In this document: one piece after another, positions 26,465 to 64,000 of the stretch
Position numbering within the stretch: the first letter of the stretch is position 1
Layout of the letters: each line of letters begins with the position of its first letter
Assembly (NCBI GenBank): GCA_958510825.1
Contig: OY294044.1
Span: 82,010,895-82,074,894, forward strand
DNA length: 64,000 nucleotides
Direction: 5' to 3'
Origin: Brachypterus glaber
Lineage: Eukaryota > Arthropoda > Insecta > Coleoptera > Kateretidae
Made by a program: the position numbers and the translations under genes
Notes under the pieces: model-generated
Databases searched by the model: none
Seen by the model: only the letters and a program-made list of their open reading frames with translations
What the model was told of the DNA's origin: nothing

Positions 26465-27682
26465 TTATTGTAGTCACAAATTTCCCGGTCAAACATAATT
26501 TTTATGTTGACGTTAATCAACTTTTTGAATATAAAACGCCTAGAAACTTAAAAAAACAATAAAAATTTTATACTAAGGCAATACTTTTCTCGTGAGAAGT
26601 AAAAATGAACACAATTTAAAAAAATCTAGACAAGATGAGAGTCAAGTGCCAATACTCTTGCTCCTGAATCGACTCTTGATTAAATATTAAATATTTACAA
26701 ATTTTGGACTTTTCATACACCTCTTAAAAATTTTAAGTAAGTTTTTTACCCACAAGTTATGGAAATAAAAAATAATTGTCAATAATAAAAACTTGTCTGG
26801 CCTACTGTAGAATTTTAAGTCTTGAAAATCCAGACTCCCATAAGACGAGTCAAGAAAATAAGTCGAGAATTCTCGTTTGGACCTTTTAAATTACAAGGTT
26901 CAACAGAAAAAAAAATCTGTCATCGGACCAATTTTTTTAAGACAATTTTGGGTCGTAGATTTCGAATCTGTAATCAGATTTTTCGGGTCACGTCAGGATT
27001 TTTTCTACATACACTACAAGTCTAATTTTTTTTGTGTTTTTCAAAGTTATGAGATTTCTAGTTAATTGCTAAAGCAAAAACATGTTTGACTTAAGCAAAG
27101 TAGTATCAATAAAAAAAATCGTGTTTGCAAACCCTTTATTTATATTTTAATACAAAAGTATAGGTATAATAAAAACAAAAGTTAAAAACGTTTGTATTAA
27201 TCAATTTTCTTTTTTACGTTTGTGTCATGTTTAAGAGCCCACCAATATTCCGCCAGCATATGCGTTTTTGCCTTTTGTTTTTATATCTTATAAATTGACT
27301 TAAAAAACTTGGTTTTGCTATGTTGGAGGCTCCCAGGGCGAGACCAAAAAGCCGCAACGTGAGCCGAGCATGTTGCCTTGATGTGTGGTTCCACGCACAA
27401 GTTGACGAGCTCTTTATTTAGTTTAACCTCAATTTTTAAACGATTTGCAACATCTTACGATTTAAGTTTTGCGTTCGCGATGTCTTTTGGTTCTGTAGTT
27501 TTCAACTCTTGCAACAGATTAATGTAAGAGTATTTTTTGCGTTTTGTCAACTGAAGTTGCCCAACATGTTTTCTGTAAAGCTCTATTTATTAAGAGATTT
27601 AGTATCCTGATGTGTGAGCTCGGTGGGTTTTGTTGAGAAGCATGTTGCCCAGCATGCTCCCTAGTGACCCTATTGAAAATGA

Positions 27683-27783
27683 CGGGTCTGCGCGAGTATA
27701 AATGTTTCATAGACCAGACTTGAGCGGGTGAATTTCATCCGCTCAAGTCCGGTTTATGCACCATTTATACCCGCCCAGACCCG
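27683..27783. mobile_element. Hairpin insertion with 45-bp arms (also 29123-29223)
   Basis: CGGGTCTGCGCGAGTATAAA ... GACTTGAGCGG pairs with CCGCTCAAGTCCGG ... CCCGCCCAGACCCG around GTGAATTTCAT. It interrupts the 20300-type element between CTCCCTAGTGA and GAGTGGCCTGCTT. The single difference between the two tandem units lies in its right arm. Confidence 0.75.
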
Positions 27784-27912
27784 GGAGTGGCCTGCTTTAG
27801 TAGCAGCGTTTTCAAAATATTACATTAGAGGGTAGTATAGGCCTATAGTTATAACTCACTCGGACATACATATTCTTTTTTTTTTTCAGTCATGGGCAAG
27901 AAAAACTGGATC

Positions 27913-28219
27913 AACTTTCGTTCGCAGGAAATCCGCTAAATTTTTAAAAACATTTTTTTTTTGCCTTTATTCGAAAATGGTAATCGTTTTTTGCGGAAAT
28001 GCATCGCTTTTTCTATGGCGATTTTTTACATATTTTTTGTGTTGGCAAAAGAACGTTATGGAAATCTGTTTTCGTTAGAAATTAAGTATATTCTTGTTAT
28101 TTGGGACCCCCGAATCTGAAAATGGCAATCGTTGTTTGCAGATTTCTATAACGGTTTTTTGCAAAAACAAAAAATATATAAAGTAAGTAACGATACCAGA
28201 TTTCCTGCGAACGAAAGTT
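27913..28219. mobile_element. TIR element, 307 bp (also 29353-29659)
   Basis: Perfect 21-bp TIRs beginning AACTTTCGTTCGCAGGAAAT. Interior AT-rich with partly paired GGCAATCGTT/GGTAATCGTT blocks. Present in both tandem units. Confidence 0.75.
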
Positions 28220-28263
28220 CGTGGAGTTTTTTTATTTTAAAAGACCCTTAAAAAAGTCCAAAC

Positions 28264-29692
28264 GAAAATCCAGACTCCCATAAGACGAGTCAAGAAAATA
28301 AGTCGAGAATTCTCGTTTGGACCTTTTAAATTACAAGGTTCAACAGAAAAAAAAATCTGTCATCGGACCAATTTTTTTAAGACAATTTTGGGTCGTAGAT
28401 TTCGAATCTGTAATCAGATTTTTCGGGTCACGTCAGGATTTTTTCTACATACACTACAAGTCTAATTTTTTTTGTGTTTTTCAAAGTTATGAGATTTCTA
28501 GTTAATTGCTAAAGCAAAAACATGTTTGACTTAAGCAAAGTAGTATCAATAAAAAAAATCGTGTTTGCAAACCCTTTATTTATATTTTAATACAAAAGTA
28601 TAGGTATAATAAAAACAAAAGTTAAAAACGTTTGTATTAATCAATTTTCTTTTTTACGTTTGTGTCATGTTTAAGAGCCCACCAATATTCCGCCAGCATA
28701 TGCGTTTTTGCCTTTTGTTTTTATATCTTATAAATTGACTTAAAAAACTTGGTTTTGCTATGTTGGAGGCTCCCAGGGCGAGACCAAAAAGCCGCAACGT
28801 GAGCCGAGCATGTTGCCTTGATGTGTGGTTCCACGCACAAGTTGACGAGCTCTTTATTTAGTTTAACCTCAATTTTTAAACGATTTGCAACATCTTACGA
28901 TTTAAGTTTTGCGTTCGCGATGTCTTTTGGTTCTGTAGTTTTCAACTCTTGCAACAGATTAATGTAAGAGTATTTTTTGCGTTTTGTCAACTGAAGTTGC
29001 CCAACATGTTTTCTGTAAAGCTCTATTTATTAAGAGATTTAGTATCCTGATGTGTGAGCTCGGTGGGTTTTGTTGAGAAGCATGTTGCCCAGCATGCTCC
29101 CTAGTGACCCTATTGAAAATGACGGGTCTGCGCGAGTATAAATGTTTCATAGACCAGACTTGAGCGGGTGAATTTCATCCGCTTAAGTCCGGTTTATGCA
29201 CCATTTATACCCGCCCAGACCCGGGAGTGGCCTGCTTTAGTAGCAGCGTTTTCAAAATATTACATTAGAGGGTAGTATAGGCCTATAGTTATAACTCACT
29301 CGGACATACATATTCTTTTTTTTTTTCAGTCATGGGCAAGAAAAACTGGATCAACTTTCGTTCGCAGGAAATCCGCTAAATTTTTAAAAACATTTTTTTT
29401 TTGCCTTTATTCGAAAATGGTAATCGTTTTTTGCGGAAATGCATCGCTTTTTCTATGGCGATTTTTTACATATTTTTTGTGTTGGCAAAAGAACGTTATG
29501 GAAATCTGTTTTCGTTAGAAATTAAGTATATTCTTGTTATTTGGGACCCCCGAATCTGAAAATGGCAATCGTTGTTTGCAGATTTCTATAACGGTTTTTT
29601 GCAAAAACAAAAAATATATAAAGTAAGTAACGATACCAGATTTCCTGCGAACGAAAGTTCGTGGAGTTTTTTTATTTTAAAAGACCCTTAAA
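28264..29692. repeat. Tandem duplication, unit 2 (1,429 bp)
   Basis: Second unit; see unit 1 at 26824-28252. Near identity implies recent duplication, gene conversion or an assembly artefact. Confidence 0.95.
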
Positions 29693-30278: not shown

Positions 30279-30637
30279 GCGAAGATTTGGTGAGGGGAGG
30301 TAAAAAATTACAACTTTTTTTACCCTAAAAATACAACTTTTTTTCCCAAAAGTTAATGACTAAAAAATAAGGTCCTCACCTTTTCGTGAAATATACAACT
30401 TTTGTATTTTGAATCCCTGCAGTACGACTTTTGTATGAAATACACTGCCCACCAGGGCCGTAGCGAAGAAGATTTGGTGAGGGGAGGTAAAAAATTACAA
30501 CTTTTTTTAGCCTAAAAATACAACTTTTTTTCCCAAAAGTTAATGACTAAAAAAAAAGGTCCTCACCTTTTCGTGAAATATACAACTTTTGTATTTTGAA
30601 TCCCTGCAGTACGACTTTTGTATGAAATACACTGCCC
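30279..30637. repeat. 187-bp tandem duplication
   Basis: GATTTGGTGAGGGGAGG at 30284 recurs at 30471, with the following 160 bp almost identical (ACTTTTTTT runs, CCTGCAGTACGACTTTTG). No coding content. Confidence 0.85.
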
Positions 30638-30659
30638 AGTAAAAGAGCTTTCCCATTTT

Positions 30660-31684: not shown

Positions 31685-31734
31685 GGGGATGTAGCTCAGT
31701 GGTAGAGCGTTCGCTTTGCATGTGAAAGGCCCGC
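31685..31734 (+). pseudogene. tRNA-Ala(UGC), 5' part, split by transposon
   Basis: GGGGATG acceptor strand, D arm with intact A box (TAGCTCAGTGG), then the anticodon arm TTCGC-TTTGCAT-GTGAA with anticodon TGC. The gene breaks at the end of the variable region. The missing T arm and 3' acceptor lie 3.9 kb away at 35637-35664. Joined on paper, the acceptor gives a G3-U70 pair, the hallmark of tRNA-Ala. With the B box displaced by 3.9 kb, normal tRNA expression is not expected. Confidence 0.95.
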
Positions 31735-32009
31735 ACGCTAGGCCTGAGGTTAACTTAAGTTTGAAACAGTGGTCAAAGCAAACAACCAGTGGATATGTGT
31801 AGAATGAGGTCTAGGCTATTCATAACCATCAACAGCAAAATCGCAGCAGATGGTTTGCAGAAGATACTGTTAAAAGTTGTTGGTGATGGCCTTGTTGTAC
31901 CTTAAAATTTTAAAAATTGGGGATTTGAGTAATAATTGTAGCTAAGTTTCGTCCGTAGAATCCGAATCCGTTCACAGAATTGATCTATCTGTTTTAGTTT
32001 TCGAAAAAA
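31735..32009 (+). repeat. Left terminal inverted repeat, 275 bp
   Basis: Pairs with 35362-35636. I count about four mismatches, all in the inner quarter (for example GTAGCTAAGTTTCG versus GTAACTAATTTTCG). Inner limit is the GTTTTCGAAAAAA block. Confidence 0.9.
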
Positions 32010-32311
32010 TTAAAATAAAAAATATGTTTTAGTAAACTTTCATCGCCTGTAAAAAAATAACTACACATGATATTAGATAAAGAATGTGTATAAATGACAG
32101 CAAATAAATTAGTATTTAAAAATACCATAGAATAATTCGTAAAATTGTGTTGTGTGACTATTTTAATATGGATTCTTTTTAAGAATTTTTTAGAAAAAAA
32201 AAGTTAGGTTGAGCAGTGTTTAGAAATACTTACACTTATACTTAAACCTATACACAAAATTTGACTTAAGTAATTACATGACAGTCTGTCAGATTATTTT
32301 TAATTTCCAAC

Positions 32312-34375
32312 ATGAGTCACGAAATAAATAGAAAAAAAATTTGCGTCGGGTGTGGTAATAAAATTATATTTAAAAAAAACAAAAGTTCGGAACATATTAT
32401 AACGAAAAAATTAGAAGTATTAATACAAAAATTTTTATGCGGCCAGTTTAATGTGGAAGACTCAAAATTTCCGTCATCAATATGTGGTAATTGTCGGCTA
32501 ACACTTCAGCAGTGGGAAAAAAATATATTTAAAAAAAAACTGCCAGTTATGCCTAATTTTGGTACCGAAGAAGATATGCTTACTAGAAACAGAAAATGTG
32601 AATGTTCATTATGTGAAAAAAGCCGGTATAAAGGACATAAAAAGGATACTCTACAAACCTCAACCTCAGATAAAAATGAAGTACTGTGTAAAATATGTTT
32701 TAGTAAAATAGGAAAAGGAAAACGGCATTCCTGTTCTTTGAATAATGCACGCGATAACATTCAAGAAATTGTTCAAACATTGCCTAAAAAACAGAAAGAA
32801 CAGGTGGTTTCTGAAGCTTTGAAAACATGTATGGAGACGGACAACAAGAATGAAGACTTAAGTTTGTGTACAAAGGGAAGAAAATTGAGGGTGGCATTAA
32901 ACCCAGAGGCTCCAAAGCCGATGGTATTTTCCCATCAAGCTTTACACAACTATAGAGTTAATACTGGATCATCTACCAATGAAATGAAGAAAATGACAAA
33001 TTTTATTAGAACCCATGCTGGAAGAAATTCTATACCAGCATACTTTAGGGAACAAAATGCGGTTCAGTCAAGTTTGCTTGAAGATATATACAATGAGAGT
33101 TGCTTTTGTTTTGATGTTGAAAAAAAAAATGATAAAGAAGAGCGACCAGTAATTTGGGCCGATGCTGAGAAACTTCTGGAGAGGGTGATGGAAAAAAGAA
33201 ATCAATATGGAGAAACATCAATTAAATTATTGGCTGATGGAGGGCAGGGATTTTTTAAATTGTCTCTCTCGTTTATTGTTGAGGACGATGAGCTAAACGA
33301 AAAAAAAAGAAGTCTTTATAAAGATGGGGGAACTGTGGGTAAGGAGGGAAAATTAAGTGGAGTTCATAAAATAATATTATTGGCAATTGTACCGTCTATA
33401 ACAGAAACATATGAAAACATAAAAATTTTATTTGAACTTACAAAAGTTAATAATATCCCATTTAAATTGGTGGCAGATTTTAAATTAATACTAACAATAA
33501 ATGGACTACAAACTGCAGCTTCCACCTACCCAAGTCCGTATTGTTTTGCTACTCTGCAAAAACTAAGATCAAAAACTATCATTGATGATAATGAAACATC
33601 TTCTGAAGAGATATCTTCAGAAGAATTAGTAACTGATCATGACTGTTTGCATTTAAAAACTTACGGAGATCTAAAAGTCCAATACCAAAAATACTGCGAA
33701 CACGGTCATTCTAAAAAGTTTGCCAAAGACTGTGGCAGTACAGTGAATCCTTCGCTTATATGTGAGGAAGACCATGTCTTTATAATAGACAAATGTATAT
33801 TTCCGGAGCTTCACGTTATGCAAGGTTTTGTTAACCGTATGTTTTGGCAGGGTCTGGTTCCCCTTTTAGGAAAAGAAAAAGCATTGCTTTGGCCAAAAAA
33901 ATTACATATAGAACCAAAAGAATACCACGGTTTTCATTTTGATGGTAACGATTGCAGAAAACTGCTAAAAAATATCGATAAATTAAACGATCCCGATATT
34001 GTTTTAAATAATCCACTACAAGTGGTTCCCTATATAGGGGTTTTTAAAGCTATGGACAAAGTTGTCAGTGATTCTTTTGGCAATAAAACTGTTGCCAAAG
34101 AACTGGATGAGCACATTGCTGAATTGAAAAAAAGTTTTCAGGCAACTGGGGTTTCACAAAGTCTGAAAATGCACGTTTTAATATATCATGCAAAACATTC
34201 TTTGTATTTTCTTAATGGTAACGGGTTTGGTTTATGGTCAGAGCAACCTGGTGAAACCATTCACAAGGAGTTTTTAAAATATTGGAACAAATATAAAGTA
34301 ATAGCAATAGACCATCCAAATTATAGCAAACGGTTAAAAAAAAGTGTAGTGGAATTTTCATCTGTAAACCTGTAA
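32312..34375 (+). CDS. Dada-like DDE transposase, 687 aa
   Basis: Probable cut-and-paste transposase acting on the TIRs of its own element. The N-terminus has zinc-binding pairs: C11-x2-C14 with C58-x2-C61, a cluster at C96/C98/C101, and CKIC (126-129) with H139/C141, probably for DNA binding. Acidic catalytic candidates are D309 in LLADGGQGFFKLSL, D389 in LVADFKLILTINGLQ (followed by a degenerate S-P-Y-C) and E644 or E648 in WSEQPGETIHKEF. FPELHVMQGFVNRMFW (497-512) and KMHVLIYHAKHS (619-630) resemble conserved blocks of eukaryotic DDE transposases with an inserted domain between the second D and E. The start ATG follows CCAAC, upstream frames are closed, and a TATAAATG lies near 32090. No frameshift or stop. 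Alternatives are a Kolobok- or P-related transposase; the tRNA target favours Dada. Confidence 0.85.
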   Translation: MSHEINRKKICVGCGNKIIFKKNKSSEHIITKKLEVLIQKFLCGQFNVEDSKFPSSICGNCRLTLQQWEKNIFKKKLPVMPNFGTEEDMLTRNRKCECSLCEKSRYKGHKKDTLQTSTSDKNEVLCKICFSKIGKGKRHSCSLNNARDNIQEIVQTLPKKQKEQVVSEALKTCMETDNKNEDLSLCTKGRKLRVALNPEAPKPMVFSHQALHNYRVNTGSSTNEMKKMTNFIRTHAGRNSIPAYFREQNAVQSSLLEDIYNESCFCFDVEKKNDKEERPVIWADAEKLLERVMEKRNQYGETSIKLLADGGQGFFKLSLSFIVEDDELNEKKRSLYKDGGTVGKEGKLSGVHKIILLAIVPSITETYENIKILFELTKVNNIPFKLVADFKLILTINGLQTAASTYPSPYCFATLQKLRSKTIIDDNETSSEEISSEELVTDHDCLHLKTYGDLKVQYQKYCEHGHSKKFAKDCGSTVNPSLICEEDHVFIIDKCIFPELHVMQGFVNRMFWQGLVPLLGKEKALLWPKKLHIEPKEYHGFHFDGNDCRKLLKNIDKLNDPDIVLNNPLQVVPYIGVFKAMDKVVSDSFGNKTVAKELDEHIAELKKSFQATGVSQSLKMHVLIYHAKHSLYFLNGNGFGLWSEQPGETIHKEFLKYWNKYKVIAIDHPNYSKRLKKSVVEFSSVNL

Positions 34376-35361
34376 ATTTTTAGTACTTATACAGTGTAAT
34401 ATAATATACACAGTTCTATTTAGGAAATTATACGATTTATAAAATCACTTTCATTTAAATTGGATCCGATCGTAGGTGATAACAAATTGGAAAAGTTAGT
34501 TTACAGTTGGTTTATAATCTACAAACAGCACTATTAATTGATTTGATTTTAATTTGAATTAGTTATTTATTTAGTTATTGTAAAATTTACAATAAATCAT
34601 GGGGTTTGTGTTACCAAAACTACAAATATATTATAAAATACGAACTTTAACTAAAATGTTATTATTATGTTAATAAATAATTTTATAAACTTATAACAAT
34701 AAATCGTTTTTCATTTATTATAAATTGATGATTTTAATTATTATTATTATTACTTATTATAACATAATATTATAATATGATAATATAATATTACCCATTA
34801 TAATATGATATAATATTATTACATATTATTATTATTACCTATTACACACTGTGTAATACACAGCATTTGCCCATTTGGCTTTTTGTTTGGTCTTCCCAAA
34901 AAGCCAAAGGTCCATTTATTATATTATTATATTAGGTATTTATTTCAATTACCTACGTTACCTACATAGCTATAAATAGGTATATTTATTATAATATAAT
35001 ATTATTATACTATATTATAGGTAATGGAAAATTAAAGTATTACCTTAAAAGTTAGACTTATAGATAACTACCTATATCTCTACTTAGATAACTTACAGTT
35101 CGAAAAATTTGTGACATTAAAATGTCTAATAATTTTTGACAAAACAAATAGACTGCTCAACTTAGTATTTATTTTTTCAGAATGTGACCACAAGGAGGTC
35201 TTGCTTATTAATAATTATACTCATATTTTATGAATTATTCGATTGCATTTTTTAATACTAAGCCTTTCTCTGTCGTTTGGGCATAATGGAAAGTTAATAT
35301 CTTTTATTGTTATTTTTTTACAGATTAACAAAGTTTGTAAAAACCGATTTTTGATTTGCAT
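34376..35361. other. Transposon 3' noncoding region
   Basis: AT-rich sequence after the transposase stop, with an AATAAA at 34591-34596 as a candidate poly(A) signal and ATT/TATA microsatellite at about 34738-35020. A GC-richer hairpin, CATTTGCCCATTTGGCTTTTTG against CAAAAAGCCAAAGG, lies near 34863-34910. No second gene seen. Confidence 0.7.
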
Positions 35362-35636
35362 TTTTTTCGAAAACGAAAACAGATAGATCAATTCTGTGAA
35401 CGGATTCGGATTCTACGGACGAAAATTAGTTACAATTATTACTCAAATCCCCAATTTTTAAAATTTTAAGGTACAACAAGGCCATCACCAACAACTTTTA
35501 ACAGTATCTTCTGCAAACCATCTGCTGCGATTTTGCTGTTGATGGTTATGAATAGCCTAGACCTCATTCTACACATATCCACTGGTTGTTTGCTTTGACC
35601 ACTGTTTCAAACTTAAGTTAACCTCAGGCCTAGCGT
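35362..35636 (-). repeat. Right terminal inverted repeat, 275 bp
   Basis: Reverse complement of 31735-32009, ending CCTCAGGCCTAGCGT at the tRNA junction. Confidence 0.9.
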
Positions 35637-35664
35637 GCCCGGGGTTCGATCCCCCGCATCTCCA
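35637..35664 (+). pseudogene. tRNA-Ala(UGC), 3' part
   Basis: Contains the T arm CGGGG-TTCGATC-CCCCG (B box GGTTCGATCCC) and the acceptor strand CATCTCC plus discriminator A. A T8 run right after it (from about 35668) is a standard Pol III terminator, so only the transposon disrupts the gene. Confidence 0.95.
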
Positions 35665-63450: not shown

Positions 63451-63458
63451 AAAAAGTG

Positions 63459-63531
63459 TGGTTCCGCCCGGGATCGAACCGGGGACCTTCTGCGTGTAAA
63501 GCAGACGTGATAACCGCTACACTACGGAACC
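63459..63531 (-). tRNA. tRNA-Val(UAC)
   Basis: The reverse strand gives a 73-nt cloverleaf: acceptor GGTTCCG/CGGAACC plus A, D arm with A box TAGTGTAGCGG, anticodon stem TCTGC/GCAGA with loop TTTACAC (anticodon TAC), and T arm CCCCGGTTCGATCCCGGG. The variable loop is short. A T7 run follows the 3' end on the same strand, a Pol III terminator. Both promoter boxes are intact, so the gene is probably functional. It closely resembles arthropod tRNA-Val as I know it. Confidence 0.95.
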
Positions 63532-63687
63532 GCGTATATTTGTGTTCAACAGATTTTACAGTATGTAAAATGAACAATATTTATTTTTTTATTTTGTCTA
63601 CGAAGCATACAGATAAATTAATTTGGTATTTTACCAATAGAAAATAGTATGCCGTAAAATCCAATGCATCGAAAAAAAAAAAAATTA

Positions 63688-63760
63688 TGCCCCGGGTGAG
63701 GCTCGAACTCACGACCTTAAGATTATGAGACTTACGCGCTGCCTACTGCGCCACCGAGGC
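63688..63760 (-). tRNA. tRNA-Met(CAU), elongator type
   Basis: The reverse strand gives a 73-nt cloverleaf: GCCTCGG acceptor paired with CCGGGGC plus A, D arm TGGCGCAGTAGGCAGCGCG, anticodon loop CTCATAA (anticodon CAT) and T arm CGTGAGTTCGAGCCTCACC. The G1-C72 pair and C residues near the acceptor fit elongator rather than initiator tRNA-Met. It lies 156 bp from tRNA-Val on the same strand. A T12 run follows as terminator. Probably functional. Confidence 0.95.
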
Positions 63761-64000
63761 AGTTGTTCTAAGAGATATTTAAAGCGTTAGTTATATTAAA
63801 AATTCATCAATGAATTTATATTTATAGAATGAATTAAAGTAAAGGTAAAAACTACCCACACGTTTAACAGAGAAACGCAGAAACATGTTAGACAAAGCAG
63901 AATTTTATTTAACACACCGCCTACCTTTATCTTTAAATCTGGGTTCCTAGGTTTTCTCTTTTGTCTTTCTGGCACCACGATTTCTTCCATTATATTTTAT
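63761..64000. other. Spacer to the window end, nothing recognised
   Basis: A reverse 64-codon frame (63796-63990) starting MEEIVVPERQKRKPR has no recognised motif. It could be the start of an exon running out of the window, but nothing supports this. Confidence 0.35.

Follow-up and report, generated by a model that had tools for sequence, protein, structure and literature searches.

The 64,000-bp window analysed here (contig OY294044.1 of the Brachypterus glaber assembly GCA_958510825.1, positions 82,010,895 to 82,074,894 of the forward strand; "the window" is this whole stretch) contains a gene for tRNA-Ala(UGC) that is split by an intact DNA transposon with long terminal inverted repeats (Table 1). 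A preliminary description, made from the sequence alone, had taken the insertion for a Dada transposon that targets tRNA-Ala genes. The split gene and the uninterrupted 687-codon transposase frame are confirmed, and no other open reading frame in the window reaches 130 aa; at the same base composition about 57 stop codons would be expected in it by chance, and the probability of finding none is about 1e-26. The termini, the length of the target duplication and the transposase motifs, however, point to the Chapaev superfamily and not to Dada, and this copy seems to have landed in a tRNA gene by accident and not under a targeting rule.

Table 1 Features of the split tRNA-Ala locus in the window.
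Feature	Position	Strand	Basis
5' part of split tRNA-Ala(UGC) gene	31685..31733	+	ends with CCCG copy 31730-31733; ARAGORN on joined flanks; intact paralogues
Chapaev-type DNA transposon (probable), 3,904 bp, CAC...GTG ends	31734..35637	+	14 other full-length copies, 0 differences
Left terminal inverted repeat arm, 289 bp	31734..32022	+	40 genomic arms 100% identical over 287 bp, window included
Right terminal inverted repeat arm	35349..35637	-	about 97.6% identity with left arm
Transposase, 687 aa	32312..34375	+	open reading frame; motifs; profile and fold matches
CCCG second copy (35638-35641) and tRNA-Ala 3' part	35638..35664	+	

The long terminal repeats of the preliminary description stand, although its sizes of 3,902 bp for the element and 275 bp for the arms are corrected to 3,904 bp and about 290 bp. 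Inverted arms were delimited at 31733-32022 and 35349-35638 (290 nt, 97% complementary); their first 207 bp are identical, near-identity stops around position 277 and weaker similarity reaches about 413 bp, with 14–16 of 20 bases matching at positions 281–340 in a gapped alignment (a zone of 70–80% similarity). Neither ARAGORN nor Rfam finds a tRNA at the split locus in the window as it stands. For the joined flanks, with the repeated bases included a single time, ARAGORN returns a complete tRNA-Ala(tgc), which is followed by a run of T. The insertion point lies at the border between variable loop and T stem, at about tRNA nucleotides 47–50 (counted by hand). A duplication of the flanks is present, but its extent, ambiguous from one copy, is resolved by the other copies as the 4 bp CCCG, in place of the 6-bp pair GCCCGC/GCCCGG proposed earlier. 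Used as a genome query, the 5' part of the tRNA-Ala gene retrieved five loci, namely the window and four others, all four of them intact tRNA-Ala genes; at one of these (L050) 49 of 49 bases equal the 5' part in the window and the continuation is uninterrupted. Because at least four intact tRNA-Ala(UGC) genes remain, the loss of one is plausibly tolerated by the host. Two intact tRNA-Ala(UGC) genes at L051/L052 (G000:C10:13526090-13527621) lie in opposite orientation about 1.5 kb apart. A derivation of the element ends from the tRNA was discarded, as the similarity between the tRNA and the first 60 bp of the arm was equalled by 90 and 55 of 500 shuffles.

The transposase is composed of a ZAD-like Cys4 domain (residues ~1–75), further Cys/His motifs (96–141) and a RAG1/Transib-like core (~204–687) with the catalytic residues D309, D389 and E648; a RAG1-like catalytic core fold is predicted across about 410 residues. 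In an alignment of 64 homologues, C408 (61/64) and C411 (64/64) make up the C(2)C motif that follows the second D, L500 and H501 of the LH motif are invariant, and H621 and H626, the H(4)H motif preceding the catalytic E, occur in 64/64. Equally conserved (64/64) is the CxxC...CxxC pattern at residues 11–14 and 58–61. It lies within residues 1–75 (32312-32536), which give weak zf-AD profile and fold matches and are fused to the RAG1-like core, and thus resembles the ZAD (zf-AD) domain of insect regulators. In the columns of this alignment that are invariant or nearly so, no D/CxxH is conserved between D389 and E648. No relatives were found in prokaryote genome contigs and viral contigs, a viral structure library gave no match at E <= 0.001, and a further protein search matched 20 proteins, none of them named.

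To obtain other copies, the genome (648 Mb, 842 contigs) was searched with 287 bp of the left arm; scoring of 40 of the 571 first-look candidates yielded 62 matches, 40 of which were 100% identical. From these 40 places, 38 complete elements could be paired (window included), while one of the two incomplete places is truncated (L037) and the other lacks 34 bp of the right end (L038). All 38 complete elements have CACGC...GCGTG ends, and their identical flanks measure 4 bp in 35 and 5 bp in two (TTTTT, TGCCG) and are absent in one. This last copy, L035, is full length with flanks GAGGC and TGTGT and is perhaps a recombination product between copies. The preliminary description had named scattered copies at unrelated sites as a result that would refute its interpretation, and such copies were found with the arm as query: the remaining 37 complete elements lie at scattered sites without tRNA similarity. 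Among the 38 rebuilt empty sites ARAGORN calls a tRNA at the window site only, and only the 200-bp flanks of the window copy resemble a tRNA-Ala gene at E <= 0.01. A common target among the flanks of L016/L028, L017/L019, L025/L036/L046 and L030/L035 was considered and dismissed, as the 12 BLAST matches have differing offsets and represent shared repeats. The copy sample is biased toward identical ends and not by insertion site, and we take it as a fair test of the target choice of a young family. Since the 37 other complete copies are scattered at unrelated sites, specificity for tRNA-Ala genes is rejected for this family.

A Dada transposon specific for tRNA-Ala genes would account for one copy lying precisely within such a gene, where Dada-tA of zebrafish and medaka is also found (PMC3706591), and Dada, too, is a cut-and-paste DDE transposon. 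Yet it is hard to reconcile with only 1 of 38 copies in a tRNA gene. Dada elements make 6–7-bp duplications in RNA genes, carry a DxxH motif and are described as having no terminal inverted repeats (PMC3706591; PMC8869645), Dada-U6 and Dada-U1 having short subterminal inverted repeats in their place. The present family differs from them in target specificity, in duplication length (4 bp), in terminal structure, with inverted arms of about 290 bp where none are reported for Dada (PMC3706591), and in its transposase, which combines C(2)C and H(4)H with a predicted RAG1-like fold in place of the D2-DxxH pattern. It is also smaller, at 3,904 bp against a published range of 4,666–10,979 bp for complete Dada elements, and the insertion is at the T-stem border and not in the anticodon or A box (PMC8869645). 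Taken together, these differences make Dada highly improbable. Nor would an insect Dada have been the novelty that was suggested, as Dada has been counted in all arthropod species investigated (PMC6327564). With the claimed insect tRNA-specific Dada removed, an example that would have widened the rare class of target-specific DNA transposons is lost.

A weaker form of preference could operate without any targeting of RNA genes, namely a bias toward GC-rich targets that would favour tRNA genes within a region of 31% GC. A preference for GC-rich targets has been attributed to enzymes of the RAG/Transib type, and the duplicated 4-mers are 42% G+C (36 sites) compared with 30.6% in the window. However, AT-only or AT-rich duplications exist (TTTT, TTTTT, TTTC, AAAC, CATT, GATT, CTAA), the information content is at most 0.24 bit at any position of the target (36 sites), and GC-only runs of at least 7 are common, 63 being present in the 60 kb of the window outside the element, that of the tRNA gene included. 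We therefore consider such a bias an unlikely explanation for the position of the window copy, although a mild one may make tRNA genes somewhat likelier landing sites.

With a probability of roughly 0.8, we read the element as a Chapaev transposon, autonomous and of the cut-and-paste type; this superfamily belongs to the CMC group and is related to Transib/RAG1. We assign it there because termini, duplication length and transposase motifs fit the published hallmarks, i.e., 3–4-bp duplications, 5'-CAC/GTG-3' ends and the C(2)C, LH and H(4)H motifs (PMC4079192); five hallmarks were tested and all fit if a serine at residue 408 is allowed for. Chapaev elements such as Garfield, Merrow and Conan agree in having CAC...GTG ends, 3–4-bp duplications and a DDE transposase with these three motifs, and in having internal-deletion miniature inverted-repeat transposable elements (MITEs) and insects among their hosts (PMC4079192). 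More broadly, the CMCT group (Chapaev, EnSpm, Mirage, Transib and others) mostly shows CA...TG ends and 2–5-bp duplications (Kojima, PMC12730594). Differences within the superfamily are considerable: silkworm Chapaev3 measures 2,289 bp, with 556 aa encoded in two exons and TWA duplications (PMC4079192), whereas the element studied here has 3,904 bp, 687 aa in one frame, arms of about 290 bp, variable 4-bp duplications and a ZAD-like N-terminus. Transib and RAG1 share with it the CAC termini, the predicted core fold over about 410 residues and the C(2)C and H(3-4)H motifs between the second D and E (PMC12730594). They are set apart by their 5-bp duplications (PMC7204232, PMC4411706), which compare with 4 bp in 35 of 38 copies and 5 bp in two here. 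RAG-like transposons further differ in that the window element has one open reading frame of at least 130 aa, with no RAG2-like partner seen.

Several observations weigh against the proposed assignment and its account of the tRNA insertion. Ser408 (33533-33535) replaces the first Cys of C(2)C in the window family, a substitution found in 3 of the 64 homologues (window included). Pfam gave only a sub-threshold zf-AD match to the transposase, the 64-sequence profile found no Transib/RAG1 or other relevant match among PDB chains at E <= 10, and no named Chapaev, Transib or RAG1 protein was matched at sequence level in Pfam or PDB chains. Placement in Chapaev follows published hallmarks. The insertion sites are those of a sample, and picking copies by an identical 287-bp end favours young ones. 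The element could instead belong to a separate, undescribed CMC/Transib lineage that is distinct from Chapaev proper and defined by the ZAD-like N-terminus, the long arms and the 4-bp duplication. We regard this as improbable in view of the five fitting hallmarks, Ser408 being allowed for, and the N-terminal 'Chapa' zinc finger described for Chapaev (PMC4411706) could be equivalent to the ZAD-like domain. Among the titles listed on Transib, Chapaev, EnSpm or Dada with tRNA genes and on active or insect Chapaev, none reports a tRNA-targeting Chapaev or the window family. In view of the ZAD-like N-terminus, it can be asked whether the ZAD domains of insect regulators and of such transposases have a common origin.

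Under the Chapaev assignment, the transposase, a DDE enzyme with a RAG1-like core, would bring both CAC...GTG ends together, cut the element out and insert it at a 4-bp staggered break, largely regardless of the target sequence, which would generate the 4-bp duplication; the order of the strand reactions is presumed. Recent multiplication would then have left full-length copies without differences, and one of the insertions would have hit, by chance, one of the tRNA-Ala(UGC) genes, of which there are at least five.

This is an extremely young family. No difference separates the 15 full-length copies along their 3,904 bp, and each of the 15 has an open frame, in line with the earlier suggestion of a recent, possibly still active transposon. 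A protein search of the genome, in which 65 of 1,280 candidates were scored and 80 matches listed, found at least 16 intact 687-residue copies at 100% identity, the sixteenth being L038 with its damaged right end. Zero differences in 15 x 3,904 bases put the divergence at no more than 5.1e-5 substitutions per site (95% upper bound). At an insect mutation rate of about 3e-9 per site and generation, the full-length copies would be younger than roughly 17,000 generations. Identity beyond the 287-bp query was under no direct selection in the copy sampling, while an assembly that homogenises repeats could mimic part of it. We infer that the 687-aa protein is the active enzyme and that the family moves at present. 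It is a new, probably active family, most likely of Chapaev type, and with at least 16 intact identical transposase genes in one genome it lends itself well to functional work on an animal Chapaev transposase.

Among the matches listed, further relatives of the transposase share 42–53% identity over longer matches and 37–44% over certain N-terminal stretches. They belong to several further subfamilies, mostly 42–53% identical, that coexist in the genome (G000, e.g., C12:34093736, C4:29490044, C1:83291198); copy sets with equal scores and open frames are seen for several, and others hold stops. L055 and L056 represent a second subfamily: both carry the same 4,053-bp element, bounded by CAC...GTG and with arms of about 507 bp. 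TATT flanks both sides in the two copies with both ends (2/2), and TTAT follows one end in L050; because this third end adjoins TTAT and not TATT, the flanking 4-mer belongs to the target. L053 and L054 share a sequence beginning with CACGG, with only the left end seen. The relative of the second subfamily at L050 (48% aa identity) occupies positions 1-509 and ends 991 bp before the intact tRNA-Ala at 1501, a gene almost identical to the split one in the window. We considered it as a second tRNA-linked insertion and rejected this, the tRNA gene being untouched and the element end 991 bp away; the proximity, a single case, is read as chance.

By size, the 38 complete elements comprise 15 of full length, 22 of 603–615 bp and one of 2,096 bp, the 23 short copies (L009-L030 and L031) representing 11 distinct sequences. 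The family is a live case of repeated MITE formation. When T-run variants were merged by hand, the 603–615-bp class showed 8 different internal-deletion junctions, in addition to that of the 2,096-bp copy. These 8 junctions appear to be independent events, though some could descend from others via later small changes. Breakpoints fall 296–320 bp from the left end and 278–321 bp from the right, just past the first 277 bp, over which the arms are nearly identical, and inside the 70–80% similarity zone. Left and right breakpoints are negatively correlated (Pearson r -0.90, p 0.002; Spearman -0.78, p 0.02; n 8) and the kept matching length is 598–617. With uniform breakpoints and both ends kept, a remainder of at most 620 bp has a chance of 3e-4 per deletion under a crude null that allows for the end length required by the query and leaves out selection for small size. 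One tentative explanation is that MITEs formed repeatedly, within one very recent burst, by a guided route: after pairing of the long arms, the 3.3-kb loop would be removed just past their near-identical part and the ends joined again; if so, arm length would set MITE size, not chance plus selection. Because arm similarity persists at positions 281–340, so that the breakpoints mark the end of near-identity and not of all similarity, we lower the odds of this route and hold it to be doubtful. The other explanation is that deletions arose freely and selection then favoured the smallest copies in which both full arms were kept.

Elsewhere in the window, 26824-28252 and 28264-29692 form a 1,429-bp tandem duplication whose copies differ by one mismatch and are separated by an 11-bp spacer; it is either very recent or an assembly effect. 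A 171-bp tandem pair (30281-30451 and 30468-30638) has 98.8% identity, and intact genes for tRNA-Val(tac) and tRNA-Met(cat) lie at 63458-63531 and 63687-63761 on the minus strand, about 155 bp apart.

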